Shown: positions 7,660-28,990 of the stretch, piece by piece | Numbering within the stretch: the stretch's first letter is position 1 | How the letters are laid out: every line of letters begins with the position of its first letter | Assembly (NCBI RefSeq): GCF_018599185.1 | Contig: NZ_JAHFVL010000002.1 | Span: 372,001-436,000, forward strand | Length of the DNA: 64,000 bases | Origin: Rhodanobacter sp. LX-99 | Lineage (GTDB): Bacteria; Pseudomonadota; Gammaproteobacteria; Xanthomonadales; Rhodanobacteraceae | Reading direction: 5' to 3' | Translations under genes and position numbers: made by a program | Notes under the pieces: generated by a model | Databases searched by the model: none | Told to the model about the DNA's origin: nothing | What the model saw: only the letters and a program-made list of their open reading frames with translations

Positions 7660-8154
7660 ATGAACCTTCGGATGACAACCCTTGCGACTCTGGCCGCCGC
7701 CGCACTCGCCGCGCTGGCCGGCGGCAACGTGCAGGCGAAAGACACCCACGGCGCACTCCAGCGTGAAGCGCTCGGCGCAGTGGACGCGCTGTTCGCGGCG
7801 ATGGCGAAACATGACGTGGACGCCTCGCGCCGCTTGATCCTGCCCGGCGCCACCTTCGTGGTGGTATTGCCCGATGGCGCGGTGAAGGTCGAGCCCGACA
7901 CCGCCTACCTGGAGACGCTGGGCAGGCACAAGGAAGCGTTCCGCGAGCGCATCTGGGACGCACAGGTGACCGTGCAGGGCAACCTTGCCCAGGTATGGGC
8001 GCCGTACGATTTCCACCTCGACGGCAAGCTGTCCCACTGCGGCATCGACAGCTTCAGCCTGGTGCGCAACGCCGACGGCTGGCGTATCGCCGGGATCAGC
8101 TACACCGTGCAGAAGACGGGGTGCGCGCCGAGCCGGCCGGGCAACGCGAAGTAG
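7660..8154 (+). CDS. exported NTF2-like (DUF4440/SnoaL-type) protein
   Basis: 164 aa. Residues 1-26 are a signal peptide ending V-Q-A-K. The rest looks like a cone-shaped NTF2-like domain: a helix with 'V-D-A-L-F-A-A-M-A-K-H-D-V-D-A-S-R', a strand 'F-V-V-V-L-P-D', then 'A-Q-V-W-A-P-Y-D-F-H-L-D-G-K' and 'H-C-G-I-D-S-F-S-L-V-R-N-A-D-G-W-R-I'. This pattern is common to DUF4440-type proteins. No substrate or enzymatic activity can be assigned. It lies 37 bp after the previous exported-protein gene and may be cotranscribed with it. Confidence 0.65.
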   Translation: MNLRMTTLATLAAAALAALAGGNVQAKDTHGALQREALGAVDALFAAMAKHDVDASRRLILPGATFVVVLPDGAVKVEPDTAYLETLGRHKEAFRERIWDAQVTVQGNLAQVWAPYDFHLDGKLSHCGIDSFSLVRNADGWRIAGISYTVQKTGCAPSRPGNAK

Positions 8155-8301
8155 CAGGTACCCCATACAGAGCTTCACCCGGCCGGCATTCCTGCCCGTC
8201 GCCTTTGACAAGGCCGGCTTATGGCATTACTTGTGGCCGCTTCTGCAAGAAGCCCGGTGCCGCATCGTGGCGCGCCCCGGCATGGACCGACAAGGCTTTA
8301 C

Positions 8302-9264
8302 ATGCGCCGAGTGACACTGATTGCCTGCGGGGGAACGATCGCCGGCCACGCCGACGAAGCCGGCCGCTTTCGCCCGACGGGCCGTGCCGCCGAACTGCTG
8401 GCGGGGGCGACGTTGCCCGCGAACGTCGAAGTCAGCGCGATCGACGCGCTCACTGTGCCGAGCCGCGCGATGTCGCTGGCCGACGTGCTGCAACTGGTGG
8501 AGCGTGTCGACGCGCTCGCCTCCGGCGCGCAGCCGCCGGACGGCGTGGTGATCAGCCAGGGCACCGACACCCTGGAGGAAACCGCCTATCTGTTCGCGCT
8601 GATGTGCGGCGCGCGGTTGCCGGTGGTGCTGACCGGCGCGATGCGCCCGGGCGTGGTCGCCGGCTCGGACGGCCCGGCCAATCTGGCTGCGGCGATCGCG
8701 GTGGCCGCGCAGGCCGAGGCCGCCGCATTGGGGCCGCTGCTGGTGTTCGGCGACGAGATCCACGCGGCGCGTTGGGTGACCAAGGTGCACACCAGCCGCC
8801 CCGCGGCGTTCGCCAGTCCCGGCGCCGGTCCGGTCGGCGTCGTCGGCGAGGGCCGCGTGCGCCTGTGGGGGGCGCCGGCGGGGCCGATCCTGGGGCGGCC
8901 GCGTGAACTGTCGCATCGGGTCGAGTTGCTGACCATGGCCAGCGGCGACGACGGCAGCCTCGCCGAGGCGGCGGGCCGTTACGCCGACGGCCTGGTGATC
9001 GCCGGCATGGGCGGTGGCCATGTGCCGCCGGCAGCGGCGAAGGTGCTGGGGGCGCTGGCCCGGCGCATGCCGGTGGTGCTCGCCAGCCGCTGCGCGGCCG
9101 GATCGGTGCTGACCTCCACCTATCGCGGCGAGGGGGCGGAGAGCGACCTGATCGCGCAGGGCCTGCTGCCGGTGGGCAACCTGCAACCGCTCAAGGCGCG
9201 CCTGCGCCTGATCGTGGGCCTGAGGCTCGGGCTGGCGCCCGCGGCGATCTTTCCGGTCGATTGA
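8302..9264 (+). CDS. L-asparaginase
   Basis: 320 aa. Asparaginases hydrolyse L-asparagine to aspartate and ammonia with two threonine-centred sites. The first appears as A-C-G-G-T-I-A-G near residue 8, the second as S-Q-G-T-D-T-L-E-E-T-A near residue 77, followed by L-T-G-A-M-R. No signal peptide precedes the first motif when the ATG at 8302 is used, so a cytoplasmic enzyme is predicted. An in-frame ATG at 8221 would add 27 residues of poor composition and is not used. Confidence 0.9.
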   Translation: MRRVTLIACGGTIAGHADEAGRFRPTGRAAELLAGATLPANVEVSAIDALTVPSRAMSLADVLQLVERVDALASGAQPPDGVVISQGTDTLEETAYLFALMCGARLPVVLTGAMRPGVVAGSDGPANLAAAIAVAAQAEAAALGPLLVFGDEIHAARWVTKVHTSRPAAFASPGAGPVGVVGEGRVRLWGAPAGPILGRPRELSHRVELLTMASGDDGSLAEAAGRYADGLVIAGMGGGHVPPAAAKVLGALARRMPVVLASRCAAGSVLTSTYRGEGAESDLIAQGLLPVGNLQPLKARLRLIVGLRLGLAPAAIFPVD

Positions 9265-15335: not shown

Positions 15336-15490
15336 GGCTTGTTCCTCGCGGCGGAGGGAAGGCCGCTTTCGATGAATCATTGTGCACCGGCCAGACCTTG
15401 GTTGCGCTGACCCGGTCGGCGATCGGTTTTTGAACACCGGCCGGGTTACAGTGGCGGTATCGTCGCTGATGTCATGTGGAGGTCGGTGAG

Positions 15491-16882
15491 ATGATGCGTT
15501 GGCTGTGGCTGGTCTGTGCGGCGGTTCTTTGCACGTTGCCGATGCAGGCGGCATTTGCCGTCGAACCCGTGGTTGCCGGCGGCACGGCGAGCCATGGCAT
15601 GGTGGCGCAGATCACGCTGGATGGCCCGATCGGCCCGGCCGCCGCGGAGTATTTCGACGACGCCTCGAAACGCGCGGTGGCCGATGGCGCCGTGGCGATC
15701 GTGCTGCGGCTGGACACGCCCGGCGGGCTGGCCGATTCGATGCGGCAGATCATCACCAGCATGCTGTCCTGCGAGGTGCCGGTGCTGGTGTACGTTGCCC
15801 CAGGCGGTGCGCGGGCGGCTTCGGCCGGAACGTATATCCTGTATGCCGGGCAGATCGCCGCGATGGCGCCGGCAACCCACCTGGGCGCGGCGACGCCGGT
15901 GCAACTGGGTGGCGCCCGGCCGGTGCCGCTGCCCAAGGCCGGCGACCAGCCGGCGGCAGCGGGTTCGGCCGCCAAGGACGAGCCGGTCGCCGGCGACGAT
16001 GCCGAGTCGCACAAGGCCATGAACGATGCGATCGCCTATATCCGCTCGCTGGCGCAGTTGCGCGGGCGCAACGCGCAGTGGGCCGAACAGGCGGTGCGCG
16101 GCGCGGCCACGCTGACCGCCAGTGAGGCCGCGCAACAGCATGTGATCGACTTCGTGGCAGCGGACGTGGCCGACCTGCTGGCCAAGGCGGACGGACGCAA
16201 GGTGCAAGTCGGCGATCGCGACGTCACGCTGCAGCTCAAGGGCGCGCCCGTGCGCGAGTATGCGCCCGGTGCGCGCACGCGCTTCCTGGCGATCGTCACC
16301 AACCCCACCATCGCTTATCTGTTGCTGCTGGCCGGCATGTTCGGCTTGCTGCTGGAAGCCATGCATCCCGGCGCCATGTTGCCGGGCGTCGCCGGTGGCA
16401 TCTGCCTGCTGGTTGGCCTGTACGCGCTGCAATTGCTGCCGGTGAACTACGCCGGGCTGGCCTTGATGGCGCTGGGTGTCGGCTTGCTGGTGGCCGAGGC
16501 GGTCAATCCCAGCGTGGGTGCGTTCGGCGCCGGCGGACTGGTTTCGTTCGTGGTGGGCTCGGTGATGCTGATGAATACCGGGGTACCCGGTTATGGCGTC
16601 AATCTTGGCGTCATCGCCGGTATCGCGATGTGCGCGGCGGGCTTGCTGGCCTTGATTGTGTGGCTGGTGTTCCGTTCGCGCCGCGCCGGGCCGGTCACCG
16701 GCGATGCGGCGATGCAGATGGACACCGGCGAACTGCTGGAGCCGGTGGAAGCCGGCGGCGAGGCCTGGATGATGGTGCGCGGCGAGCGCTGGCGCGTGCG
16801 TTGCGATACCGCATTGCCGGCCGGTGCGCGGGTGCGCGTGGTGTCGCGGCAGGGGTTGCTGTTGCGGGTCGAGCCGGCATGA
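15491..16882 (+). CDS. NfeD-family membrane-bound serine protease (ClpP class)
   Basis: 463 aa with signal peptide ([13 protein letters not shown]). Residues ~35-230 are a ClpP-like protease domain; the nucleophile Ser is expected in '[10 protein letters not shown]' and a catalytic Lys in 'S-H-K-A-M-N-D-A'. Four or five TM helices (residues ~265-400) and a C-terminal OB-fold NfeD domain ('[10 protein letters not shown]') follow. Characterised relatives cleave the C-terminus of the stomatin encoded next door. ATG 15491 is preferred because ggaggt lies 7 bases before it; an in-frame GTG at 15476 lacks this. Forms an operon with the slipin gene. Confidence 0.9.
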
Positions 16883-16919
16883 CCCGGCGCGGCCATTTCA
16901 TGAAAGGCAGGAGATGATC

Positions 16920-17696
16920 ATGTTCGGATTCGTCGGTGTACTGGTAATTCTTGGCGTGCTGCTGCTGTTCTCCGCGGTGAAGATCCTGCCGGAGTACCAG
17001 CGCGGTGTGATCCTGACCCTGGGCCGCTACACCGGGACCAAGGGGCCCGGACTGGTGCTGCTGGTGCCGTTGGTGCAGCGGATGATCCGCGTCGACCTGC
17101 GCGTGACCGTGATGGACGTGCCGCCGCAGGACGTGATCTCGCGCGACAACGTCTCGGTGCGCGTGAATGCGGTGGTCTATTTCCGCGTGGTGGAGCCGGA
17201 CAAATCCGTGCTGCAGGTGGAGAACTTCCTGCAGGCCACCAGCCAGCTCGCGCAGACGCGACTGCGCTCGGTGCTCGGCCAGCACGAGCTGGACGAGATC
17301 CTGTCGCAACGCGATTCGATCAACCACACCTTGCAGACCATCCTCGACGAGGCCACCGATCCGTGGGGCATCAAGGTCGCCAACGTGGAGATCAAGGACG
17401 TCGACCTCAACGAGACCATGGTGCGCGCGATCGCCCGCCAGGCCGAAGCCGAGCGCGAACGCCGCGCCAAGGTGATCCACGCCGACGGCGAGCTGCAGGC
17501 CGCCGAGAAGCTGCGCGACGCCGCCGCGATGCTGTCGCAGCAGCCGCAGGCCTTGCAGCTGCGCTACCTGCAGACGCTGGCCGACATGTCCAACAACGGC
17601 AAGTCCTCGACCATCGTGTTTCCGCTGCCGCTGGACCTGATCCGACCGCTGATGGAGGCGTTTCCGGCAAAGTCCGATCCGGCCTCGAACCGCTGA
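16920..17696 (+). CDS. slipin (stomatin/prohibitin-family membrane protein)
   Basis: 258 aa. One N-terminal hydrophobic hairpin (residues 2-20) is followed by an SPFH/band-7 domain ('[13 protein letters not shown]' and '[13 protein letters not shown]'). A helical segment rich in A/E/R and a C-terminal '[11 protein letters not shown]' complete it. Slipins oligomerise on the membrane and pair with NfeD proteases, as the gene order here (37 bp apart) predicts. ATG 16920 fits the aggag at 16909-16913 better than ATG 16914, which is one base from it. Confidence 0.92.
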
Positions 17697-17761
17697 ACTG
17701 GCGCAGCCGTTCAACGCGGGTGAATAATGCCGCCCATCTCCTGCCAAGACGAGCGATCACC

Positions 17762-18583
17762 ATGGATGCAGCACGTTCACCCGGAAGCCTGGTCTGCGTG
17801 GGCCTGGGCATGACCCTGGGCTCGCACCTCGGTCCGCTGGCGCGCAGCCATATCGAACAGGCGGACGTGGTGTTCGCCGGGCTCTCCGACGGCATCGTCG
17901 AGCTGTGGCTGAACAAGATGCATGCGGACGTGCGCAGCCTGCAGCCGTACTACCGCGAAGGCAAATCGCGCATGCAGACCTACCGCGAGATGGTCGAGGC
18001 CATCCTCACCGAGGTGCGCGCAGGCAAGCGGGTGTGCGGGGTGTTCTACGGCCATCCCGGCGTGTTCGCCTGGGCGCCGCACAAGTCGATCGAGGTAGCC
18101 CGCAGCGAGGGTTACCCCGCGCACATGGAGCCGGGCATTTCCGCCGAGGACTGCCTTTACGCGGACCTCGGCATCGACCCGGGCCGCTACGGCTGCCAGC
18201 ATTTCGAGGCCAGCCAGCTGCTGTTCTACCAGCGCCGGATCGACCCGACCGCCTACCTGGTGCTGTGGCAGGTGGGCCTGGTGGGCGACCAGTCGCTGGC
18301 CCGCTTCTCGACGGGCCCCGCGTACAAGCAGGTGCTGGTCGACGTGCTGGCGCGCGACTACCCGCTCGATCACGAGATCACTATCTACCGCAGCGCCACC
18401 TTGCCGATCCAGCAGGCGCGCGTCGAGCGGGTGAAGCTCGGCGACCTGCCGCAGGCGAAGGTCGAGATGGAGGATACGGTGGTCGTGCCTCCTGCCGGCC
18501 CGCTGCAGCCGAATACGGAAATCCGCGCGCGTCTGGCCGAACTGGACCGGGCGGAGGGTGCGACTCCGGTGGGTATTCTGTGA
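17762..18583 (+). CDS. split-borosin-type peptide backbone N-methyltransferase (SonM-like, tetrapyrrole-methylase fold)
   Basis: 273 aa, a full tetrapyrrole-methylase (class III SAM) domain: 'S-L-V-C-V-G-L-G' at 9-16, 'Y-G-H-P-G-V-F-A-W' at 96-104 and 'M-E-P-G-I-S-A-E-D-C' at 122-131. Tyr64, Arg70 and Tyr74 have the same 6- and 4-residue spacing as the catalytic Tyr66/Arg72/Tyr76 I recall for the borosin enzyme OphMA. The overall sequence resembles SonM of Shewanella, which methylates backbone amides of a separate precursor. There is no fused peptide: the protein stops at residue 273, as in split systems. Four candidate precursor genes follow on the same strand. A corrin/porphyrin methylase is the alternative, but no cobalamin or haem gene is nearby. 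Confidence 0.85.
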   Translation: MDAARSPGSLVCVGLGMTLGSHLGPLARSHIEQADVVFAGLSDGIVELWLNKMHADVRSLQPYYREGKSRMQTYREMVEAILTEVRAGKRVCGVFYGHPGVFAWAPHKSIEVARSEGYPAHMEPGISAEDCLYADLGIDPGRYGCQHFEASQLLFYQRRIDPTAYLVLWQVGLVGDQSLARFSTGPAYKQVLVDVLARDYPLDHEITIYRSATLPIQQARVERVKLGDLPQAKVEMEDTVVVPPAGPLQPNTEIRARLAELDRAEGATPVGIL

Positions 18584-18725
18584 GCAGGTAGACAAGTTGG
18601 TGTTGGCGGCGTCTCTACGATGGTTTGGCGCAGGCTTGTGGTTGCCGGTGGCTCTCGGTGGTTCTTGCCGTCTGGCAGCCGAGCGATCTGCGCAATTCCC
18701 AACCCATCATTACCTGGAGAGCGCC

Positions 18726-18992
18726 ATGTCGAACATCATTGATTTTCTTGAAACCATCGGGCAAAACGCCAGCCTGCGCTATGCTTCGCCGGAGGAAATG
18801 CAGCACGTCCTGGCCGATAGCCAGGTGGGTAGCGAGCTGCAGGAGGCTGTGCTGGCCGGGGATCAACAGCGACTGTCGGAGTTGCTGAGGGCGAAGAATA
18901 CCTGTTGCATGCTGATGCCGGGCCGAGTCAGCTGTCTGCTGATGTCCGGCATGAATGACGAAGATGAGATCCTTGGCGAGCGGTGTGCCTGA
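18726..18992 (+). CDS. borosin-type precursor peptide 1
   Basis: 88 aa, start ATG with ggagag four bases upstream. Residues 1-56 are a helical leader (N-I-I-D-F-L-E-T-I-G-Q-N-A-S-L-R-Y-A-S near the start; 'V-L-A-G-D-Q-Q-R-L-S-E-L-L' near its end), resembling the borosin-binding domain of SonA. The remainder holds two hydrophobic Cys/Met segments, C-C-M-L-M-P-G at 60-66 and V-S-C-L-L-M-S-G at 68-75, then an acidic tail. It lies 142 bp after the methyltransferase gene. That residues in these segments are N-methylated is inference from the family; which ones is not visible. Confidence 0.75.
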   Translation: MSNIIDFLETIGQNASLRYASPEEMQHVLADSQVGSELQEAVLAGDQQRLSELLRAKNTCCMLMPGRVSCLLMSGMNDEDEILGERCA

Positions 18993-19099
18993 GGTATTGA
19001 CGGAGCATTGACCAGTGCCCAGGCTCGTTTGGTCGATGACCAACACGCAGTTGGGTGTTCATTGCAAAGGCAATCGTTTGGCGGATCGCTGATTCAATT

Positions 19100-19127
19100 C
19101 CAGCGCAGGGCCCATGCCTTGCGCTGG
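19100..19127 (+). promoter_or_regulatory. strong hairpin between precursors 1 and 2
   Basis: A 12-bp stem (arms 19100-19111 and 19116-19127, one G-T pair) closes a 4-base loop. No T-run follows at once, so it may be a terminator, processing site or mRNA-stability element separating the two precursors. A hairpin with a related 3' arm (GCCTTGCG) sits in the same place between precursors 3 and 4. Confidence 0.5.
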
Positions 19128-19241
19128 AAGCAACAGAGGAAAGTGGTTTTTGTAAAATGCGCCTGACCGATATTTCGGTTATCGCGACAAGCCGCCGACA
19201 CGACCAGTTGCGGGACGGCCAATTATCAAGGGGGAGGGGAA

Positions 19242-19538
19242 ATGCCGAACGTCATCGATTTTCTTGAGCGAGCGGGGCAGGACGCGCTGTTGAGACGTGC
19301 ATCGCACGTTGAAGTGGAGCTTGCGTTGGCGAATATGCAGGTCGAGCCGGAACTGCGGTCGGCAATTCTCGACCGGGATCCTTCGCGGCTGGAAGCATTG
19401 CTGGGGCGTGTGCCGCTACTGTGCATGCAGTTCCCTGGCAAGGAGGACGAAGAAGAGGAGGACGATACTGAGGAAAGCCCGTCACGGGAAGGCGAGGAGA
19501 TGGTTTTAAAGCCATGTCCCGCAGCGCAGCTTCGGTAG
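19242..19538 (+). CDS. borosin-type precursor peptide 2
   Basis: 98 aa with a strong Shine-Dalgarno (gggggagggg). The leader repeats the family pattern (V-I-D-F-L-E-R-A-G-Q-D-A-L-L-R-R-A-S, then 'P-E-L-R-S-A-I-L-D-R-D-P-S-R-L-E-A-L-L-G'). The candidate core V-P-L-L-C-M-Q-F-P-G-K at 57-67 is followed by a very acidic stretch (E-D-E-E-E-E-D-D). The C-terminal ~20 residues include a further Pro-Cys-Pro. Its 3' end overlaps the start of the longest form of the diguanylate cyclase gene by 25 bases, suggesting coupled expression. Confidence 0.75.
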   Translation: MPNVIDFLERAGQDALLRRASHVEVELALANMQVEPELRSAILDRDPSRLEALLGRVPLLCMQFPGKEDEEEEDDTEESPSREGEEMVLKPCPAAQLR

Positions 19539-21361
19539 TCTGGCCGATGCCTGGATCGGGCAGGTTGCGCATGGCGTTCTTCGCCATTTCGATCCTGCTC
19601 GCTTCCTTGCTGGCAGGCACGCTCTGTGCGGCTGTGTCTGTACCTGTAGACCCTGTGGACCCGGAGCAACTGCTCAGGCGAGCGGATGCCATCAAGACAT
19701 CGAACCATGCGGAGTTCGCGGAACTCCTGAAGCAGCTTGATGGTGATGCGATAAAACTGTCCGCGGAGCAGCAGTGGTACCTGCGTTTTCTCGATGCCTG
19801 GGAAGCCGCCTACAGTGGCGATTACAAGACCGCGACAACGTCGCTGAACGCCATAATGGATCAATCGCCCAGCACCACTCTGCGATTTCGCGCGGGTGCC
19901 ACCTTGGTCAACATGCTCGGCATCGGACATCGCTATGAAGAGGCGTTCGCAAGGCTGAGCCAGCTTCTCGATCAACTGCCGGAGGTTGACGACAAGGAGG
20001 CGCGCTTCCAGGGGTTGGGCGAAGCTGCGCAGTTGTACATTGAAGCGGGTCAGTATGACCTTGCCTTGAATTACGCGAATCAGTTGCTCGCCGAAAACCC
20101 GACCGGAGAATATGCCTGCAAAGGCAGGTATCTGGTGCTCGATGCGCGTTATCGCAGCGGCAAGCTGCAGGATATCGCCCGGCAATTCCAGGAAGGCGTC
20201 GATGTCTGCGTCGAAGTCGGTGGAACCCTTTTCGCCAACGGGATTCGCGCAGACATGGCGAGGTTCGAGATCGAGCAGGGGCGCGCGGCGGCAGCCATCA
20301 GCCTCTTGCAAAAGAACTATGCCGACGTCTTGGGCGCCAAGTACCAGAGTTTGATTTCACAGTTCGACGCACTGCTGGCAATGGCGTACTGGAAAGACGG
20401 CCAGGTTGTTCTGGCGGAGCGATTCGCTCACGACGCGATCAACAGCAGCATCAGGAACGAATACACCGAATCCCTGACCACGGCCTACGAGCTGCTTTAC
20501 CGGATCAAACTGCAGCAACGTGATTTTGCTGCCGCGCTTTCCTGGCACGAGAAGTACATGGCGTCCGACAAGGCCGACTTGAACGACGTCAGTACGAAGG
20601 CGCTGGCGTACCAGGTGGTCAAGCAGCAGGTACAGGCGAAAAAGCTGGAAGTCGAAACGCTGGGCAAGCAGAACCAGATACTGCAGCTGCAACAGGCGCT
20701 GGACAGGAAAGCTTCCGAGACGAGCCGGCTGTATATCGCGTTGCTGCTCAGCGTGCTGGTCTTCATCGCGCTGTGGGCTTACCGGATAAAGCGTTCCCAG
20801 CTGCGCTTCATGCGGTTGGCGCGTCGCGACGGGCTCACGGGCATCTTCAACCGGCAGCATTTCCTCAACGAGGCCGAGTTGCAGTTGCAGTACTGCCGCC
20901 GGGCTTCGCGCGATGCCTGCCTGGTGCTGATCGACCTGGATCATTTCAAGGCCATCAACGACACCCACGGCCATGCCGTGGGTGATCGCGTGCTGCAGCG
21001 TGCCGTGGATGCATGCAAGGCACATCTGCGCTCGACCGACGTCTTCGGCCGCCTCGGCGGCGAGGAGTTCGGCATCCTGTTGCCCGAATGCTCGCTGGAA
21101 CAGGTACTGGCGCGCGCCGATCAGCTCCGTTCGGCGGTCGCCTCGGCGGCGTCCCATGGAGATGAGCTCGACATCCAGATTTCCGCCAGCTTTGGCGTCG
21201 CCTGCTCGATCCGTTCAGGTTATGAGCTGCACTTGCTGCTGGTACATGCCGACGAGGCGCTGTATCGGGCCAAGCGCGAAGGCCGCAACCGGGTCAGGGT
21301 CAGCGACGATGGTGCGGAAGCGTGCCACCGCGCCGAAGTGGCCTCCATCGAAAGGGGCTGA
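19514..21361 (+). CDS. membrane diguanylate cyclase with periplasmic TPR-like sensor (copy 1)
   Basis: 615 aa in the longest form; starts at 19547 or 19571 would give a more usual signal peptide. After the signal peptide, residues ~50-360 form TPR-like helical repeats, then a coiled coil (~365-395), one TM helix (L-Y-I-A-L-L-L-S-V-L-V-F-I-A-L-W) and a GGDEF domain. The active site reads R-L-G-G-E-E-F and an I-site R-S-T-D stands five residues earlier, so c-di-GMP synthesis with product inhibition is expected. It directly follows precursor 2. Copy 2 (22588-24354) has the same architecture and follows precursor 4. What the periplasmic domain senses is unknown. Confidence 0.88.
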   Translation: MSRSAASVVWPMPGSGRLRMAFFAISILLASLLAGTLCAAVSVPVDPVDPEQLLRRADAIKTSNHAEFAELLKQLDGDAIKLSAEQQWYLRFLDAWEAAYSGDYKTATTSLNAIMDQSPSTTLRFRAGATLVNMLGIGHRYEEAFARLSQLLDQLPEVDDKEARFQGLGEAAQLYIEAGQYDLALNYANQLLAENPTGEYACKGRYLVLDARYRSGKLQDIARQFQEGVDVCVEVGGTLFANGIRADMARFEIEQGRAAAAISLLQKNYADVLGAKYQSLISQFDALLAMAYWKDGQVVLAERFAHDAINSSIRNEYTESLTTAYELLYRIKLQQRDFAAALSWHEKYMASDKADLNDVSTKALAYQVVKQQVQAKKLEVETLGKQNQILQLQQALDRKASETSRLYIALLLSVLVFIALWAYRIKRSQLRFMRLARRDGLTGIFNRQHFLNEAELQLQYCRRASRDACLVLIDLDHFKAINDTHGHAVGDRVLQRAVDACKAHLRSTDVFGRLGGEEFGILLPECSLEQVLARADQLRSAVASAASHGDELDIQISASFGVACSIRSGYELHLLLVHADEALYRAKREGRNRVRVSDDGAEACHRAEVASIERG

Positions 21362-21383
21362 TGAGTCCGGGCCGGCCCATGCA

Positions 21384-21670
21384 TCATGGGGAGTCCTTGG
21401 CCGTGGCTTTGGCCGGTGGCATGTCCAGCCTGTCGAAGTTCACGATCGCGTTGAGCACCAGCGGATAGCTGCCGATGGTTTCGCCGCGCCAGATCGGGTT
21501 GCTGGCGAACAGCAGCACGTGACCCTTGCCGTAGCGGGCGTCGACCACGGCGGCGCGTTCGGCCATCTCGTCGCCGCCGTCGAGCAGGCCGGAGATCAAG
21601 AGGTCCCTGGCGTCAACGCAGCGCAGAATCACCCGCGGGCGCTGGAACTCCTTCGCGGTCGGCGCGTGTG
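21384..21670 (-). pseudogene. 3' fragment of an M14 peptidase gene with a 52-codon internal deletion
   Basis: The segment 21415-21645 matches 26256-26486, the 3' end of the intact M14 gene, with 14 differences in ~230 bases by my count (~94%). The translation runs 'P-T-A-K-E-F-Q-R-P-R-V-I-L-R', whereas the intact gene has 52 more residues between two Q-R-P repeats, so a deletion between short direct repeats is visible. No catalytic part remains; the frame continues upstream into unrelated sequence. It lies between the two precursor/cyclase blocks. Confidence 0.85.
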
Positions 21671-21812
21671 CACCGTTGGAATGATGGTGTATTTTCGCTT
21701 CGTTGGGCGAGCCAATGGGGGTAGCGGGGGAAAAGATAAGTCTGACAAGACGAATTGATGCAGCCTTCATCGGGCCGCCAGCTTTCAATCATTCTAGCGA
21801 GGGAGATGGCCG

Positions 21813-21989
21813 GTGTTCGATGTGATCGATTTTCTTGAAAGTGTGGGTCAGGATGCACAGCTGCGTTACGCTTCTTCGGAGAAGGTTGTCGCCACTTTGG
21901 CGGGTCAATCGATAGATTTTAAGTTTCGCGATGACAAAGACGGGAAAGATGATGCCGATAAAGATAACAGCGATAAAAGGGCAGCATAG
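21813..21989 (+). CDS. borosin-type precursor-like peptide 3, core-less
   Basis: 58 aa from a GTG codon with gagggaga ending six bases before it. The first ~34 residues keep the family leader (V-I-D-F-L-E-S-V-G-Q-D-A-Q-L-R-Y-A-S and L-A-G-Q-S-I-D). The second leader helix and the hydrophobic Cys core of its siblings are missing; the sequence jumps to a Lys/Asp tail (D-D-K-D-G-K-D-D-A-D-K-D) like the tail of precursor 4. This looks like an in-frame internal deletion. G+C is ~46% (82 of 177 by count), far below the flanking genes. It may be decaying or may act as a core-free leader. Confidence 0.6.
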   Translation: MFDVIDFLESVGQDAQLRYASSEKVVATLAGQSIDFKFRDDKDGKDDADKDNSDKRAA

Positions 21990-22050
21990 AGGCCCGATGG
22001 GTGACTATTTAACATTCATGCTGTTTCAGGACGTCGTGTTGTGAATCGAT

Positions 22051-22081
22051 GTCGGCGCAAGGGTTCGGCCTTGCGTCCGAC
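22051..22081 (+). promoter_or_regulatory. hairpin between precursors 3 and 4
   Basis: Arms 22051-22062 and 22069-22081 pair over 12 bp with a single bulged T and a 6-base loop. The 3' arm shares GCCTTGCG with the hairpin between precursors 1 and 2, and both lie 80-115 bases before the next precursor start, so they look like equivalent elements. Confidence 0.45.
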
Positions 22082-22160
22082 ATGTCGGAGAGACAGATTT
22101 TCGATGTACTTGCATTGACCATAGGCAGTATCGAAATCACCAACTGTAGGGGGTAGACCA

Positions 22161-22535
22161 ATGACGGGTGTCATCGATTTTCTGGAAAGGATGGGGCAGG
22201 ACGCGCAATTGCGTCATGCATCCCAGGATGAAATGGGGTTTGCGCTGGCCGGCGCAGAGATTGATCCGGAATTGCGGGTGGCGATCCTTGCCAGGGATGA
22301 GCAGGGATTGCAGGCGTTGCTGGGACAGGATCCCTTCTGCTGCCTGATCAGCCCTGCCAAACCAGGCGAGGAACAAGAGGAATGTGATGGTAGCTGCAAA
22401 GAGGGTGAAGAGAAGAAGGACGACAAGGACAAGGACAAGGACAAGGACAAGGACAAGGACAAGGACAAGGACAAGGACAAGGACAAGGACAAGGACAAGG
22501 ACAAGGACAAGGGGAAGAGAAGGGATGGAGATTAA
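22161..22535 (+). CDS. borosin-type precursor peptide 4 with (Asp-Lys)15 tail
   Basis: 124 aa. Leader: V-I-D-F-L-E-R-M-G-Q-D-A-Q-L-R-H-A-S, then 'P-E-L-R-V-A-I-L-A-R-D-E-Q-G-L-Q-A-L-L-G'. Candidate core: D-P-F-C-C-L-I-S-P-A-K-P-G at 57-69, aligned with C-C-M-L-M-P-G and L-L-C-M-Q-F-P-G of precursors 1 and 2. Then comes an acidic spacer with C-D-G-S-C and a tail of 15 Asp-Lys dipeptides (88-117) ending G-K-R-R-D-G-D. The tail is encoded by a perfect hexanucleotide repeat. Followed by cyclase copy 2 after 52 bp. Confidence 0.75.
   Translation: MTGVIDFLERMGQDAQLRHASQDEMGFALAGAEIDPELRVAILARDEQGLQALLGQDPFCCLISPAKPGEEQEECDGSCKEGEEKKDDKDKDKDKDKDKDKDKDKDKDKDKDKDKDKGKRRDGD
22422..22511 (+). repeat. 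(GACAAG)15 microsatellite inside precursor 4
   Basis: Fifteen perfect copies of GACAAG, 90 bases, in frame with the precursor gene. Because the unit is six bases, copy-number changes would alter tail length by Asp-Lys pairs without shifting the frame. Confidence 0.97.
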
Positions 22536-22587
22536 AAGCCAGGTTTCACGACTTGCCGTTCCTGCGCCTGCGACCACTGACTAGCTC

Positions 22588-24354
22588 ATGGACCAGGCGG
22601 GCAGATACAGGTTGGTATTCGCTTGCTGCGTGCTTCTGCTTTTATTTGTAGCGGGCGCGGCTGCTACGACGGCGACCATATCCAACGATCCTGCGCAGTT
22701 GCTGAGACAAGCTGAAAACGTCGAGCCCTCCAATCATGCCGTGTTCAATGAGCTGATGGGGCGACTCGACAAGGTCACGATGACGCTCTCACCGCAACAG
22801 AAGTTGCATCTACGTTACCTTGAGGCTCGGCGGGTCGCCTTTGCGGGCAACTACGCCGCGGCGTTGCCTTTGTTGACAGCGCTTGCCGATCAAGCCGCGG
22901 ATCCCGTTCTAGCATTTCGCGCCAACGCCAACGTGATCGACCTGTTGGTTGCCCAATCCCGCTATGAGGAAGCCTTTGTCAGGCTCAATCCATTGTTGGA
23001 TCAGCTGTCGCAAATAAAGGAAAACGATGTTCGCATCCAAGGTCTCACCGCCACGGCGCAGTTGTACACCGAGGCTGGTCAATACGATGCGTCCATGCGT
23101 TATGCCGATCAACTGATCAAGGAGAGCACTGACGCCCAGAGTGCATGCAGGGGCTGGTTCTTGAAGTCCGATGCGCTGTTTAAAAGTGGCAGCGCACAGT
23201 TGCCCGCCGATCAGCTTCACGATGGCACGGAGGCATGCGGAAAGGCGGGCGATACACTGTTTTCGCTCAGTTTTCAGTATTTGCTGGCGAGTTTCGACCT
23301 GCGGCAGGGGCACACTGAGTCGGCTATTCGCGTGCTGCAAGAGAGCTACCCCAAGGTGCTGCAAGCAGGCTTTCCGCCTCAGGTTTCCCAGTTCGAGGCG
23401 ACCTTGGCTACGGCTTACTGGAAGAGTGGCGATCTTGCCTCGGCGGCGAAATTTGCCAATAGCGCCCTGGTGACGAATGCCAGCAGGCAGTATTCGGAGT
23501 CGACGGCCAACGCCTATCGAGTGCTTTACGAGGTCGACAAGGAACTGGGCGACAGCAGGGGCTCCCTGGCATACCTTGAAAAATACGTAGCTGCCCACGA
23601 TGGCTATCAGAGCCGGCTCAGCGCGAAAGCACTCGCCTATCAGATCGTCGAACAGCAGGTACTGACGAAAAAACTGCAGATCGAGGGGCTGGACAAGAAG
23701 AACAAGATCCTCACCCTTCAGGGAGAGCTGGACCGCAAGGCGGTGGAAACCAGCCGCTTGTACATCGCGTTGCTGGTGCTGGTGCTGGCATCCATTGCGC
23801 TGTGGACATACCGGATCAAGCGTTCGCAATTGCACTTCATGCGGCTGGCGCGGCGCGACGGCCTTACCGGCATCTTCAACCGGCAGCACTTCGTCAACGA
23901 GGCCGAGCGGCTGTTGCGTTATTGCCGCAAATCGGCGCGCGATGTCTGCCTGGTGCTGATCGACCTGGATCACTTCAAGCTGGTCAACGACACCCATGGG
24001 CATGCGGTGGGCGACCGGGTGCTCAGGCGCGCGGTCGATGCCTGCCAGGCGCACCTGCGCTCCACCGACGTGTTCGGCCGTCTCGGCGGGGAGGAGTTCG
24101 GCATGTTGCTGCCCGAGTGCACGCTTGACAACGTGCTGGTGCGGGTCGAGCAGATGCGCGCGGCGATCGCCGCCGTTTCGAGCGCCAAGGATGCGCCCGG
24201 CATCCCGATCTCGGCCAGCTTCGGCGTGGCCAACGCGGCCGACTGCAGTTATGAGTTGCGGCAGCTGATGATCGATGCCGATCGCGCCCTGTATCAGGCC
24301 AAGCACGAGGGGCGCAACCGGGTCAGCCTTTTTGGCGTCGGCACGCGCAGCTGA
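22588..24354 (+). CDS. membrane diguanylate cyclase with periplasmic TPR-like sensor (copy 2)
   Basis: 588 aa. The signal peptide follows M-D-Q-A-G-R-Y-R-L; TPR-like repeats fill residues ~35-340 (Y-T-E-A-G-Q-Y-D-A-S-M-R-Y-A-D-Q-L is one clear unit). A coiled coil, one TM helix (L-Y-I-A-L-L-V-L-V-L-A-S-I-A-L-W) and a GGDEF domain follow. R-L-G-G-E-E-F is intact with an R-S-T-D inhibition site. It is clearly paralogous to copy 1, roughly two-thirds identical in the GGDEF part and less in the sensor. The 5' part of the gene has visibly lower G+C and less biased codons than the cyclase domain, which suggests mixed origins or relaxed selection on the sensor. Confidence 0.9.
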   Translation: MDQAGRYRLVFACCVLLLLFVAGAAATTATISNDPAQLLRQAENVEPSNHAVFNELMGRLDKVTMTLSPQQKLHLRYLEARRVAFAGNYAAALPLLTALADQAADPVLAFRANANVIDLLVAQSRYEEAFVRLNPLLDQLSQIKENDVRIQGLTATAQLYTEAGQYDASMRYADQLIKESTDAQSACRGWFLKSDALFKSGSAQLPADQLHDGTEACGKAGDTLFSLSFQYLLASFDLRQGHTESAIRVLQESYPKVLQAGFPPQVSQFEATLATAYWKSGDLASAAKFANSALVTNASRQYSESTANAYRVLYEVDKELGDSRGSLAYLEKYVAAHDGYQSRLSAKALAYQIVEQQVLTKKLQIEGLDKKNKILTLQGELDRKAVETSRLYIALLVLVLASIALWTYRIKRSQLHFMRLARRDGLTGIFNRQHFVNEAERLLRYCRKSARDVCLVLIDLDHFKLVNDTHGHAVGDRVLRRAVDACQAHLRSTDVFGRLGGEEFGMLLPECTLDNVLVRVEQMRAAIAAVSSAKDAPGIPISASFGVANAADCSYELRQLMIDADRALYQAKHEGRNRVSLFGVGTRS

Positions 24355-24534
24355 GCGTCGTGTGGGCGCATGGTGGCCTGCTGTCCTTGCGATGGCGGCG
24401 ACATCACGGTGCTGGGGGCGCAGCATTCCGTGTTTGTCGCCGCGACCGGCGATCGTGGACGGGGCCTGCCGCATGGACAGCCGGGTAGGGGCGCGTTACA
24501 AAGGTGGTCGATTCCACCGGTGGGGAGCGTTCCG

Positions 24535-26223
24535 ATGCGCATCAGGAGTTCTGTCTTGCTGGCTGCCCTGGGCCTGATCGCGTTTTCGCTGCAGGCGGCA
24601 ACGGGGCCGGAGTTGGAGCGGGCGCCATCGATCAACGCCGCCGATTTCGCGCGCTTCGACAAGGCGCTCAGTTCCGACGCGTTCGGCGGGCGCAAACCCG
24701 GCACGATCGGTGCGCAGCGCACCACCGATTTCCTGGTGGCCGAGTTCAAGCGGATGGGTTTGCAGCCGGGCAACCACGGCTCCTGGTACCAGACCGTGCC
24801 GGCCGATTCCACCTTGCTGCTGAATACCGACGTCACCCTGGACGTCACCGCCCGCGGCAAGCCGCTGAAGCTGGCATACCGCACCGACATGGTGGCGCAG
24901 ACTCTGCAGGCGAAACCCGAGGTCGCGCTGAAGGACTCGCCGGTGGTGTTCCTCGGCTACGGCGCGGATGCGCCTGCCTGGCACTGGAACGACTACCGGG
25001 GTGTCGACGTGAAGGGCAAGACGGTGATCGTGCTGGTCAACGATCCCGGCTTCGCCACCCGCGACCCGAAGCTGTTCAACGGCCGTGCGATGACTTGGTA
25101 CGGCCGCTGGCCGTACAAGTATGCGGAAGCTGCGCTGCAGGGCGCCGCCGCCTGCTTCATCGTGCATACCAGCGACGCCGCGGCCGGCTATCCGTGGAGC
25201 GTGCTGCAGAACGGTTCGGTCGGGCCGCAACTGAGCCTGCCGGGCAGTGTCGACCCATCGCCGCGGTTGCCGGTGGCCGGCTGGCTGACGCGCGACGCGG
25301 CCACCCGGCTGTTCGCCGCCGCCGGCTTCGATTTCGCTGAACTCGAACGGGCCGCAGCGAGGCCGGGCTTCGAGCCGGTGCCGTTGCACGCGACGGCCTC
25401 GATCACCCTGCACAACAAGATCGGCCACATCGAATCGAAGAACGTGGTGGCGATGGTCGAGGGCAGCTACAAGCCCGACGAGGTGGTGGTCTACACCGCG
25501 CACTGGGATCACCTGGGCACCGATCCGACCCGCCAGGGCCATCAGGTCTATGCCGGCGCGATCGACAACGGCACCGGCCTGAGCATGTTGCTGCAGATCG
25601 CCGGCGCGTTCGCGCACCAGGCGCGGCCGCCCGAGCGCAGCGTGCTGTTCTTCATGCCGACGCTGGAGGAATCGGGCCTGCTCGGTTCGCAGTACTACGC
25701 GGCGAAGCCGGTGTTCCCGCTGAACCGCACGGTGGCCGACATCGCCGTCGACGCGTTGCCGGTCATCGGCCCTGCACGCGACATGACGGTGATCGGCAAG
25801 GGCCAGTCCGAGCTGGAGGACATGCTTGCCGGCGTGCTGCGCAAGCAGGGCCGGGTGATCTCGCCGGAGAGCACGCCGGAGAACGGCTTCTACTTCCGCT
25901 CCGATCATTTCAACTTCGCGCGGGCCGGCGTGCCGGCGATGCTGGCCAGCTCCGGCCTCGACCTGCTCGATGGCGGCAGGGCCGCCGGCCAGAAGGCGGC
26001 CGACGACTATACGGCGCACCGCTATCACACGACGAACGACGTGTTCGATCCGCACTGGAACCTGCAAGGCATCCTCGAAGATACCCAGGCGCTGTACGAG
26101 CTGGGCCGGCACCTCAGCCATGCGGGAGTGTGGCCGCAGTGGTACGCCGGCAGCCCGTTCAAGGCCGCGCGCGATGCCATGATGAAGCCGCCGGTGAAGC
26201 CGGCCGCGCCACCGTCGAAATAA
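24535..26223 (+). CDS. exported M28-family zinc aminopeptidase
   Basis: 562 aa with signal peptide (M-R-I-R-S-S-V-L-L-A-A-L-G-L-I). A PA-type insert spans residues ~130-280. The zinc ligands of M28 appear in order: His/Asp in 'T-A-H-W-D-H-L-G', Asp in 'G-A-I-D-N-G-T-G', Glu-Glu in 'L-E-E-S-G-L-L-G-S', and a late His in 'R-S-D-H-F-N-F-A-R'. It should release N-terminal residues from peptides outside the inner membrane. The ATG at 24535 is chosen for the signal peptide; the longer frame upstream is not protein-like. It converges with the M14 gene 19 bp downstream. Confidence 0.92.
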   Translation: MRIRSSVLLAALGLIAFSLQAATGPELERAPSINAADFARFDKALSSDAFGGRKPGTIGAQRTTDFLVAEFKRMGLQPGNHGSWYQTVPADSTLLLNTDVTLDVTARGKPLKLAYRTDMVAQTLQAKPEVALKDSPVVFLGYGADAPAWHWNDYRGVDVKGKTVIVLVNDPGFATRDPKLFNGRAMTWYGRWPYKYAEAALQGAAACFIVHTSDAAAGYPWSVLQNGSVGPQLSLPGSVDPSPRLPVAGWLTRDAATRLFAAAGFDFAELERAAARPGFEPVPLHATASITLHNKIGHIESKNVVAMVEGSYKPDEVVVYTAHWDHLGTDPTRQGHQVYAGAIDNGTGLSMLLQIAGAFAHQARPPERSVLFFMPTLEESGLLGSQYYAAKPVFPLNRTVADIAVDALPVIGPARDMTVIGKGQSELEDMLAGVLRKQGRVISPESTPENGFYFRSDHFNFARAGVPAMLASSGLDLLDGGRAAGQKAADDYTAHRYHTTNDVFDPHWNLQGILEDTQALYELGRHLSHAGVWPQWYAGSPFKAARDAMMKPPVKPAAPPSK

Positions 26224-26242
26224 CGCGGGTTCGTCGTCGGCC

Positions 26243-28990
26243 TTAGGGTTTCGCCGGCGGCGTATCCAGCTTGTCGAAGTTCACGACCGCGTTGAGTACC
26301 AGCGGATAGCTGCCGATGGTTTCGCCGCGCCAGATCGGGTTGCTGGCGAACAGCAGCACATGACCCTTGCCGTAGCGGGCGTCGACCACGGCGGCGCGTT
26401 CGGCCATCTCGTCGCCGCCGTCGAGCAGGCCGGAGATCAAGAGGTTCTTGGCGTCGGCGTAGCGCAGGATCACCCGCGGACGCTGGTCGGCCGGGATCAC
26501 CCACGGGTTGTTGCGCATCTGCTCGATGTTCAGCGGCAGCGGCTGCCATGGCTTGACGTCGGGCAGGGCGGCCGGAGCGATCGAGGCGCGGCCTTCGGGC
26601 GTGTCCGTGTCGTGCGGGCCGCCGCGTCCGGTCGGGCGCTGGAAATCCTTCGCGGTCGGCAGGCCCTTGTCGCCGGTGACCAGGTTGGACACCTTGAACG
26701 ACTGGCCGGCTGCGCTGTACAGCGCCAGTTCGTCGCGGCTGTAACCGGTGGCGATCGGGCCGCTGCGGTCGACGAACTTCGCCTGCAGCACGCTGCCGAC
26801 GACTTTCAGCTTGTCGGTTTTCGTGACGAACACGCCCGGCGCCAGGCCGACATCGATGGCGAACTTCGCCGTGTCCTCGGCGGTGATCAGCAAGCCGCCG
26901 GCCTGCACGAATCGCTTGAGGTTCGCGACGCCGCTCTCTCCCAGTCCGGGGCGGATGTCGTCGGTGGCGTCGATATGGCCCAGGTTCGGCGTCAATGCGG
27001 TGGTCTTCCACGGCAGCGGATTGCCCCACATCGGCAGGCCGTCGATGATCTGCTGGGCGCTGGCGTCGCCGACCGGACCGAACAGGATCACGTCGTACTT
27101 CGCGCGCAGGTCGCCGGCTTTCGCCACGTCCTGGGTGCTGATGTAGTCGTACGGCACCTCCAGCTTGTCCAGCGCCATGCGCCACCAGCCTTCGGTCTGG
27201 GTGCTCAGCCAGGTGTGCATCAGCGCGATGCGCGGCAGCTTCGCCTGCGGCATGTCGACTGCGGCCAGACCTTGCGGCACGGCGATCGGCCCGTCGAGCA
27301 GGCTCATCGGCGCCTTGAGGATCGCGGTGTCGGTCACCCGCACCACCTGCACGTCGAACAGGTCGCCCATCGACCAGCCGGTGTCGTCGTAGGGGTGCTG
27401 CTGCGGGTCCTTCGGCGACCAGTACTGGCGGTCGAGCAGGGTGTCGACGATGCGCGAATACGGCTGGTCCATGCGCACGACGTAGCTGCCGGCGGGGAAG
27501 GTCCGCGTTTTGGCCTTCTTCTTGTCGTCGTCCTGCTTCGGCAGCGTGACCGTGACCGGCGCGCTGGTGCGGCTGATCTCCGCGTGCTGCAGTTGCAGAA
27601 CCCGCAGCAGCTGGGCGCGCGAACCGGGGCGCTTGTCGTCGGCCGGGAACACGTACGCAGCCGGGCCGGCCTGCTGCGGCTTCTCGATCGAGCGCTTGCT
27701 CTTCAGGTAGAAGTTCTTCAGGAACTGCTGGCCGTTGCCGGCGAAGTAGTTGAGCGCGGTGAGCAGGCCGGTCTGCTGGTAGTTGTTGTTGTTGCGCTGC
27801 GACCACTTGACGGTCGGCAGCGGCGGGTTCGGGCGGTACCAGGTGCGCTGGTATTCCTCGGGGTCGAGGATGCGCTGCACGGTGTCGGCGCCGGCGTTGC
27901 CGAAAGTTTCGTACAGGCGGCTGATGCCGTTGTGCATGGCGGCGATGAACATCAGGTAGCCCGGGCTCCAGGTGTCGAAGTCGCCGTGGGTGAACACGCC
28001 GGGCATGCCGAGCCGGGTCATCTGCTGCACGTTGTCCCAGCCCAGCTGTTGCCACTCGCCGGTGAGGATGGGGTCGATCCATGCGTTGTACGGGCCATCG
28101 CCCACGGTGTTGTCGTACAGGAACGGCACCGATTCGTGCAGGTCGTGCAGCACCTGCGCGTGCCAGCCGACGAAGGTGTCGGCCACGTGGCGGGTGAGGT
28201 TCAGCGACATCCCCATCGCGTCGCGGTTGTTGTCGTGCGCCACGTAGTGGCCCCAGTACAGCAGCCGCGGGTAATTCTGGCCCGGATGCGCCAGGTGCCA
28301 GTTGTACAGGTCGGCCATGCGGTCGCGGCCGTCGACCTCGACCACCGGCGTGATCAGGGTGACCACGTGCGAGCGGATCTGCCGGATGTACGGCGCCTCG
28401 TCCACCGCGAGGCGGTAGGCCAGTTCCATCAGCGCGGTGGGCGAGCCGGTCTCGGTGGAGTGGATGGCGCCGGTGATGTAATAGACCGGCGTGGACTGTG
28501 CGATCAGCTGGTCGGCCGTGGCGTCGTCCATGCCGATGCGGCGCGGATCGGCCAGCTTGGCCAGGCGCGCCTTGTTCGCGTCGAGGTCGGCCAGCAGGCT
28601 TTCGTCGGCGATCGCCACCGCGATCATCTCGCGGCCTTCCTCGCTCTTGCCGATGGTGAACACCTTCACCCGCGGGCTGGCCGCGGCCAGTGCGCGGAAG
28701 TAGCGGTGGACGTCGGCCACATGGGGCAGGTAGTCCGGTGCGCCGGCGATGTGGCCGAGCACCTTGTCCGGCGTGGGCACGCTGGCGGAGGCGGGCAGGT
28801 AGTCGGTCAGCGGCGAGTTGAACGAGGGATCGGTGGTGAACTTCAGGATCTGCGCCGTATACGCCTGGTCGACCGGCTGGGCCGGGTCGCGGGCATACGG
28901 CTTCGAGTTGTCGGGTTCGGTCGCCGCAAATACACCGCAAGTGCCTGATGCCAGCAGCACGGCGAGCAAGAGCCGGATGGACGCGCGCAT
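26243..28990 (-). CDS. exported M14-family zinc carboxypeptidase, large form
   Basis: 915 aa. The signal peptide (residues 1-22) ends at G-V-F-A-A. The M14 zinc-binding HxxE is visible in 'G-A-I-H-S-T-E-T-G-S-P' near residue 190, followed by helices typical of the family. The C-terminal ~250 residues form an additional Rossmann-like domain ('L-I-S-G-L-L-D-G-G-D-E-M-A-E-R', 'G-H-V-L-L-F'), which is what was copied into the fragment at 21.4 kb. Expected to trim C-terminal residues from peptides in the periplasm or outside. Last gene of a minus-strand peptidase cluster. Confidence 0.9.
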   Translation of the reverse strand: MRASIRLLLAVLLASGTCGVFAATEPDNSKPYARDPAQPVDQAYTAQILKFTTDPSFNSPLTDYLPASASVPTPDKVLGHIAGAPDYLPHVADVHRYFRALAAASPRVKVFTIGKSEEGREMIAVAIADESLLADLDANKARLAKLADPRRIGMDDATADQLIAQSTPVYYITGAIHSTETGSPTALMELAYRLAVDEAPYIRQIRSHVVTLITPVVEVDGRDRMADLYNWHLAHPGQNYPRLLYWGHYVAHDNNRDAMGMSLNLTRHVADTFVGWHAQVLHDLHESVPFLYDNTVGDGPYNAWIDPILTGEWQQLGWDNVQQMTRLGMPGVFTHGDFDTWSPGYLMFIAAMHNGISRLYETFGNAGADTVQRILDPEEYQRTWYRPNPPLPTVKWSQRNNNNYQQTGLLTALNYFAGNGQQFLKNFYLKSKRSIEKPQQAGPAAYVFPADDKRPGSRAQLLRVLQLQHAEISRTSAPVTVTLPKQDDDKKKAKTRTFPAGSYVVRMDQPYSRIVDTLLDRQYWSPKDPQQHPYDDTGWSMGDLFDVQVVRVTDTAILKAPMSLLDGPIAVPQGLAAVDMPQAKLPRIALMHTWLSTQTEGWWRMALDKLEVPYDYISTQDVAKAGDLRAKYDVILFGPVGDASAQQIIDGLPMWGNPLPWKTTALTPNLGHIDATDDIRPGLGESGVANLKRFVQAGGLLITAEDTAKFAIDVGLAPGVFVTKTDKLKVVGSVLQAKFVDRSGPIATGYSRDELALYSAAGQSFKVSNLVTGDKGLPTAKDFQRPTGRGGPHDTDTPEGRASIAPAALPDVKPWQPLPLNIEQMRNNPWVIPADQRPRVILRYADAKNLLISGLLDGGDEMAERAAVVDARYGKGHVLLFASNPIWRGETIGSYPLVLNAVVNFDKLDTPPAKP

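Follow-up and report, generated by a model that had tools for sequence, protein, structure and literature searches.

The closest described counterpart of the genes considered here is the SonM/SonA pair of Shewanella oneidensis, in which a borosin methyltransferase and its precursor peptide are separate proteins and the precursor begins with a borosin-binding domain (SonA residues 1-53); SonM and SonA were purified and crystallised as a complex, and according to the text of that description no split borosin had by then been linked to a final natural product (PMC8429565). We describe here a related locus of the soil bacterium Rhodanobacter sp. LX-99 (Gammaproteobacteria, Rhodanobacteraceae), which occupies positions 17762 to 24354 of the window, namely the whole stretch of 64,000 nucleotides that was analysed (positions 372,001 to 436,000 of contig NZ_JAHFVL010000002.1, assembly GCF_018599185.1, forward strand). 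In this locus, a SonM-like methyltransferase gene is accompanied by precursor genes of a ribosomally synthesised and post-translationally modified peptide (RiPP) and by two genes for diguanylate cyclases (DGCs) with tetratricopeptide repeats (TPRs). A later paper is said to deal with the product of a Shewanella borosin. The second system to be compared is the RRNPP family of Bacillota (e.g., Rap/Phr), in which a receptor gene and an adjacent peptide gene are paired in sets duplicating together, and in which the receptor is a cytoplasmic TPR regulator with a helix-turn-helix or phosphatase output. Our analysis identifies the window locus as a true split-borosin locus possessing three precursors and as one example of a conserved module of borosin genes and TPR-DGCs. 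We give about even chances to the reading that the peptide product of this type IV split-borosin locus is the ligand of its own membrane receptor and thereby feeds into cyclic di-GMP (c-di-GMP).

The split-borosin locus of Rhodanobacter

Seven open reading frames (ORFs) make up the locus, and all of them were found at the positions and on the strand given in an earlier note on this DNA, which had proposed a split-borosin locus with four precursors and two interleaved cyclases from the letters of the sequence.

17762..18583, plus strand: predicted borosin alpha-N-methyltransferase, SonM-like, 273 aa, no fused core (PDB and Pfam searches, residue alignment)
18726..18992, plus strand: precursor A1, 88 aa (leader hidden Markov model, HMM, 1e-27), no cyclase directly behind
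19242..19538, plus strand: precursor A2, 98 aa (leader HMM 4e-25), directly upstream of cyclase 1
19514..21361, plus strand: predicted diguanylate cyclase 1, 615 aa as the longest ORF (GGDEF 5.1e-44 and weak TPR matches in Pfam)
21813..21989, plus strand: precursor remnant A3, 58 aa, GTG start (leader HMM 3e-17; DNA alignment with locus L234)
22161..22535, plus strand: precursor A4, 124 aa (leader HMM 2e-30), directly upstream of cyclase 2
22588..24354, plus strand: predicted diguanylate cyclase 2, 588 aa (GGDEF 2.2e-40 in Pfam), architecture as in cyclase 1

The arrangement suggests one methyltransferase followed by two precursor-cyclase cassettes, together with one extra precursor. When the PDB was searched with the methyltransferase, the best matches were SonM (1.4e-77), dbOphM (2.5e-51) and OphMA (4.8e-46), and 25 of the 26 sequences at E<=0.01 were borosin enzymes, the single corrin enzyme standing at 0.0098; the SonM-like identity proposed earlier is thus borne out, as is the absence of a fused peptide. 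Also, Tyr64, Arg70, Tyr74 and Tyr96, the positions of which were checked in the window protein, align with Tyr58, Arg67, Tyr71 and Tyr93 of SonM; the first three had been named as catalytic in the earlier note, with exact residue numbers. In SonM, mutants of Tyr58, Arg67 and Tyr71 have a lower catalytic rate, and Y93F has chiefly a lower affinity for S-adenosylmethionine (SAM), as reported in the text of PMC8429565. The window protein is 96% identical to a database cluster named Rhodanobacter soli.

Alternatively, the methylase could be a tetrapyrrole enzyme with the small ORFs unrelated to it, given that both Pfam and NCBIfam put the protein in the tetrapyrrole methylase superfamily. The Pfam match is, however, at the superfamily level only (TP_methylase, 3.1e-19), and the corrin and siroheme models of NCBIfam (8 of the 8 listed) scored far under their cut-offs: the best, YabN, reached 39 bits vs 525, and cobJ 24.5 bits vs 246, which does not place the protein among corrin or uroporphyrinogen methylases, the grouping that the earlier note had named as the outcome contradicting it. 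A tetrapyrrole methylase identity is ruled out by these searches in Pfam, NCBIfam and PDB, and the leader of the small ORFs matches that of SonA, as described below; we therefore regard this explanation as extremely improbable. The protein is a borosin alpha-N-methyltransferase by family, its activity being predicted from the sequence.

As for the small ORFs, an HMM built from the leaders of the four ORFs and then iterated found a leader protein adjoining the methyltransferase in 41/41 family loci, which were the same loci on which the HMM had been iterated; chance leaders and spurious ORFs are ruled out by this result. The family loci are the window and 40 others (L033-L072), hand-picked from a longer list to spread over genera. 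While a profile including the Shewanella relatives of SonA is partly circular, a profile built without SonA-like rows gives a clean test, and it matched SonA in the PDB at 6.6e-6 with one further match at E<=0.1 (0.084), regarded as noise. In a profile-profile comparison by hhalign, the window-type leaders and SonA-like precursors were aligned over 57 columns with a probability of 97.7. Profiles were used because the single-sequence match of P0005 to SonA (E 0.1) is unreliable on account of its KD tail. Given the profile match and the profile-profile comparison, the leader is considered to be a borosin-binding domain of the SonA type. A discrete enzyme of the SonM/OphMA family without a fused core, in which catalytic and core-holding residues are kept, hence stands beside separate precursors with an N-terminal borosin-binding domain, and the window locus is a new member of the type IV borosins.

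The leader is followed by a short hydrophobic core, often with Cys, Met, Leu, Phe and Pro, and then usually by an acidic tail. On inspection, a hydrophobic core was present in A1, A2 and A4. A1 has apparently two tandem cores behind its borosin-binding leader (CCMLMPGRV and SCLLMSGMNDEDE), a form recurring in relatives (e.g., L034-L036 and L039-L041); A2 has a core region around VPLLCMQFPG, of a type common to cluster 5 of the TPR parts (see below), and an acidic tail; and A4 has the core region DPFCCLISPAKPGEEQEECDGSC, of a type common to TPR cluster 3, and a (KD)n tail encoded by a tandem repeat of 15 copies of GACAAG (22422-22512). Tails are shorter and imperfect in relatives of A4 (e.g., L041), and strain-to-strain variation in length may exist. 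A3, in contrast, is composed of the first 39 leader residues and an acidic tail, and 123 bp have been lost in frame when compared with a full-length relative in L234; because the leader end and the core were lost with these 123 bp, A3 is a remnant and no substrate as it stands. The locus therefore has three intact precursors (A1, A2 and A4) plus one core-less remnant, so that the leader shared by four small ORFs is upheld beyond chance, in A3 for its first part only, and the four substrates proposed earlier come down to three. No signal peptide was visible in the precursors by inspection, and the window peptides are probably backbone-methylated by analogy with SonA. A side observation concerns L115 (G424, 7902-9233), in which a methyltransferase without cyclase has an upstream precursor with repeated YFCxVxTPE units, possibly a multi-core one.

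The earlier note had also considered that the small proteins might belong to a family found mostly in genomes without such a methylase, which was not the case as far as examined: besides the 41/41 family loci, the 8 precursors located away from a methyltransferase were all in genomes having one elsewhere, a check resting on the examined loci with no genome-wide search by the precursor profile. In terms of the separate methyltransferase and precursor, the borosin-binding leader and the catalytic residues, the window is thus like SonM/SonA (PMC8429565), but it is unlike that system in having several precursors, longer acidic tails and two precursor-cyclase cassettes.

TPR-GGDEF cyclases as partners of the methyltransferase

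Both cyclases possess an N-terminal hydrophobic segment, a TPR region (44% identical between the two), a transmembrane helix followed by RIKR, a GGEEF domain and an RxxD I-site. The signature GG(D/E)EF is found within a complete GGDEF domain in both, from which cyclase activity is predicted. While the longest ORF of cyclase 1 overlaps A2, a start at Met20 (19571) is equally possible and would place the gene 32 bp behind A2. Among 193 distinct relatives, GG[DE]EF was found in 192, a transmembrane helix before GGDEF in 190 (positive-inside in 184 of these) and an N-terminal hydrophobic segment in 162; also, C202 and C232 in the TPR part of cyclase 1 were invariant in alignments of 43 and 28 rows. 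These topology signals and the two invariant Cys residues make a periplasmic TPR part with a disulfide and a cytoplasmic GGDEF part the most likely arrangement. A profile of the TPR part matches the Rap peptide-pheromone receptors over ~180 residues (RapJ, 2.5e-8; RapF, 4.4e-8), which is consistent with a receptor role and should be taken as nothing further. The system is like RRNPP in that a TPR domain would recognise a small peptide whose gene adjoins its own and that the pairs duplicate together; this likeness is in the mode of action only, and the cyclases are not members of RRNPP, given their GGDEF output domain and a TPR part placed before a positive-inside transmembrane helix. Unlike in RRNPP, the window receptor would be membrane-bound with a most likely periplasmic TPR part, its output would be c-di-GMP, and the ligand would be a backbone N-methylated RiPP.

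The link between sensor and methyltransferase is evident already within the genome of Rhodanobacter sp. LX-99, where 24 GGDEF genes were found, 3 of them with the TPR sensor and every one of these at the two borosin loci; by arithmetic on the same genome, a GGDEF gene is expected within 3 kb on either side of a random point in ~4% of cases. The second borosin locus (L033; G000:C2:330000-345000) is ~49 kb off and has a methyltransferase 77% identical to that of the window, a precursor of another type with the core region KPMYAPQISQAPG and a TPR-DGC of its own. Beyond this genome, a full TPR-DGC was either fused to the methyltransferase or no more than 6 kb away from it in 40/41 family loci, 30/31 order loci, 72/80 named loci and 1/7 distant class-level loci. 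When a recognised precursor was required in addition, the numbers were 40/41, 28/31, 72/80 and 1/7 at E<1 and 40/41, 22/31, 65/80 and 1/7 at E<1e-4. Here, the order loci (L101-L131, n=31) were likewise hand-picked to spread over genera, and the set of named loci was formed by the best 80 of 569 confirmed relatives among the matches listed (595 stretches with the pattern); this last set leans to cyclase-linked enzymes because the first row of its query has a cyclase neighbour, and the sets are not additive because some named loci appear to come from the same genomes as loci of the other sets (e.g., L204 and L112 with identical rows). Of the named loci, 8 were scored as lacking a cyclase: five stop at a contig edge, in two the contig end runs through the cyclase gene, and in one the cyclase is broken in two.

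Among the named carriers are Luteimonas, Lysobacter, Dyella, Luteibacter, Wenzhouxiangella, Rheinheimera, Alteromonas, Salinimonas, Sedimenticola and Shewanella. Shewanella sp. ANA-3 and PS-2 have a TPR-DGC gene 6 bp behind sonA, which in turn follows sonM; the Shewanella loci examined, which are from species other than S. oneidensis, likewise have the TPR-DGC directly behind sonA (e.g., L219 and L226). In 23 named loci, furthermore, TPR, transmembrane helix, GGDEF and methyltransferase are encoded in a single ORF; eight of these are from Luteimonas, and the fused form also occurs in Thermomonas, Pseudoxanthomonas, Rubrivivax and several metagenome bins. Nine fused rows that were placed in a tree form one clade (support 100/99). 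We also noticed that a metagenome bin of Dokdonella (L183, 4685-10762) has two tandem cassettes, each of a precursor and a fused TPR-GGDEF-methyltransferase.

Presence and absence across genomes agree with this linkage. In the 45 family genomes (>=95% complete), sensor and methyltransferase were both present in the same 28 and both absent in the other 17. In the order outside the family (223 genomes, counted from genome listings), 73 genomes had both, 11 only the methyltransferase, 17 only the sensor and 122 neither. In a class-wide sample of 369 genomes, which is the least biased look at co-occurrence, the methyltransferase was found in 9 and the sensor in 3, all within those 9. The cyclases described in the earlier note as interleaved in the window are indeed there, and they are not a local oddity; they are conserved partners across the order and beyond.

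That note had also taken the layout to be undescribed, which holds in part. A GGDEF domain is already named in the legend of Figure 1 of PMC11395268, where borosin architectures are drawn from other papers; this is presumably a cyclase-methyltransferase fusion like those found here in Luteimonas, Thermomonas, Rubrivivax and others, and the window differs from it by having a free-standing cyclase paired with a precursor. In their main texts, PMC11395268 mentions no TPR, c-di-GMP or cyclase, and PMC8429565 no GGDEF, diguanylate or tetratricopeptide; the available text of PMC11285071 likewise has no mention of GGDEF or diguanylate. In the literature searched by title, a scope outside which the main borosin surveys lie, no listed title on RiPPs, precursor peptides, tetratricopeptide proteins or N-methylation together with diguanylate cyclases or c-di-GMP dealt with this pairing. 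Relative to known borosins, the multi-cassette layout of proposed peptide-receptor pairs is provisionally regarded as new.

Cassettes, co-variation and the nature of the product

A recognised precursor was located directly upstream of 165 of the 199 TPR-DGC genes in the loci examined, a count that contains doubles from the genomes occurring in more than one set, as opposed to the 193 distinct sequences mentioned above. Among 13 TPR-DGCs located away from any methyltransferase in the 45 family genomes, a precursor was directly upstream in 8, none was recognised in 4, and 1 was a broken gene. Since the cassettes persist away from the methyltransferase, precursor and cyclase together seem to form the unit, on which a methyltransferase encoded at another place could act. 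An expanded array was also seen in L157 (G200:C10:32000-49000), with five consecutive TPR-DGC genes around one methyltransferase and a precursor upstream in three of them.

Precursor and sensor also vary together. In 53 family cassettes, the distance between precursors was correlated with that between TPR parts (Spearman 0.83) more than with that between GGDEF domains (0.66), and with equal numbers of similarly conserved columns of similar mean distance, the leader still gave 0.74 vs TPR and 0.62 vs GGDEF. In the 13 loci with at least two cassettes, single-copy loci entering only the distance correlation, the nearest cassette by precursor agreed with that by TPR part in 251/312 cases and precursor and GGDEF agreed in 192/312, whereas 200 runs of within-locus shuffling gave a mean of 156 and a maximum of 227. 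Clustering of the TPR parts alone, moreover, sorts the cores into types: namely, PQxSQ(T/S)PG, FCCLxxPAKP, (F/Y)CCYIxPGKEDE, a looser xCxxxxPGKEDEEE group and xxFLAPGEEQ.

These data bear on the possibility that the locus makes an ordinary split-borosin product (an antibiotic, a metallophore or similar) acting on other cells, with the linked cyclase only a regulator of production or lifestyle, which would sense an outside cue or else the product itself for feedback or self-protection. Regulators are common in RiPP clusters, and the variability of the cores, with their acidic tails, is reminiscent of diversifying products. Also, when ORFs of 120 aa or longer from 72 loci were grouped into 240 clusters, one cluster among those examined recurred close to the genes both in and outside the family: a GNAT acetyltransferase, always on the same strand, beside 21/72 loci (16/31 outside the family; e.g., L102:9515-10147, minus strand). 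A pepsin-like aspartic protease was beside 5 of the 72 loci, all among the 31 order loci, and both enzymes would fit a multi-step pathway; ORF clustering did not find the acetyltransferase at the window locus. The cyclase is, however, as constant as the precursor and is paired with it even away from the methyltransferase, and the sensor and core types shift together, which is not expected of the sensor of an unrelated cue but would be seen with a feedback sensor. On balance, an ordinary product appears rather unlikely, although it has to be kept in mind.

Other neighbours recurred at scattered places, namely a 2'-5' RNA ligase-like gene in 11 loci and an ABC-transporter ATPase in 6. No Rfam family (e.g., a c-di-GMP aptamer) was found in 17000-25500 at E<=0.1, and no sigma-70 consensus promoter was found vs 1.6 expected, a difference that is uninformative. 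Between the two cyclase genes of the window, several repeats have a common offset of 3029 bp. The upstream flank (15476-17696) with NfeD and Band 7 (SPFH) genes and the downstream flank (24370-28990) with M28 and M14 peptidase genes are taken as ordinary neighbours.

Returning to the reading of the peptide as ligand of its own receptor, we note several observations that weigh against it. No exporter or maturation protease was seen to recur beside the genes among those of the 240 clusters that were examined in the 72 loci. An I-site is present in just 120 of the 193 distinct cyclases, and in the profile search the Rap proteins scored behind engineered TPR proteins and GPSM2. No cyclase stands directly behind A1, and the four lone cyclases without a recognised precursor are intact. 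The 17 sensor-only genomes of the order lack the methyltransferase at the cut-offs used; the sensor match was at E >1e-10 in 9 of them but at <1e-20 in five (G267, G285, G317, G337 and G438), so that the link of sensor to methyltransferase is not exclusive. Six of the seven distant borosin methyltransferases, one of the six on a short contig, are without cyclase, and the cyclase link is therefore a trait of the SonM-like branch. Linkage accounts for part of the co-variation, because linked genes duplicate together and the TPR-coding end is nearer to the precursor; the precursor-TPR correlation drops slightly along the thirds of the TPR part (0.80, 0.75 and 0.73). Finally, the leader tracks the TPR part (0.79) more than core plus tail does (0.68, a value obtained with short, poorly alignable cores), which is the reverse of the simplest expectation for the core as ligand.

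This last result would fit a cyclase steered from inside the cell, where the leader or the methyltransferase-precursor complex would touch the cyclase at the membrane and report the methylation state or SAM supply as c-di-GMP, and the peptide may stay inside. In the 23 fused loci, the methyltransferase is indeed attached to the cytoplasmic GGDEF end, and the precursors have no visible signal peptide. Nonetheless, the precursor co-varies more with the TPR part, periplasmic by topology, than with the cytoplasmic GGDEF domain, and cassettes exist without a methyltransferase nearby; we consider such steering from inside to be improbable.

A possible peptide-to-c-di-GMP signalling system

If the peptide is the ligand of its own receptor, the following course of events can be proposed. 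By analogy with SonM/SonA, the methyltransferase would bind the folded leader of the precursor and N-methylate backbone amides of the short hydrophobic core. The core would then be cleaved from the leader and reach the periplasm or the outside; since no exporter or protease conserved with the genes was seen, the cut might be made by a general protease and the N-methylated peptide might cross passively. The mature core would bind to the cyclase whose gene directly follows that of its own precursor, namely at the periplasmic TPR sensor, and would thereby change c-di-GMP synthesis by the GGEEF domain. One methyltransferase could in this way serve several precursor-receptor cassettes, which would duplicate and diverge in step.

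In conclusion, the constant TPR-sensor cyclase, the gene fusion and the matching receptor and peptide types lead us to propose that the peptides may be signals setting c-di-GMP and, with it, perhaps biofilm formation and motility. More tentatively, and at somewhat less than even odds, the SonM-type split borosins in general could represent a widespread form of peptide signalling in Gram-negative bacteria, in which cognate periplasmic TPR-cyclase receptors and their peptides form several co-evolving pairs around one methyltransferase. If true, this would be a class of peptide-to-c-di-GMP signalling with N-methylated ligands; being N-methylated, the signal would resist proteases and pass through membranes, which would account for no exporter having been seen beside the genes.

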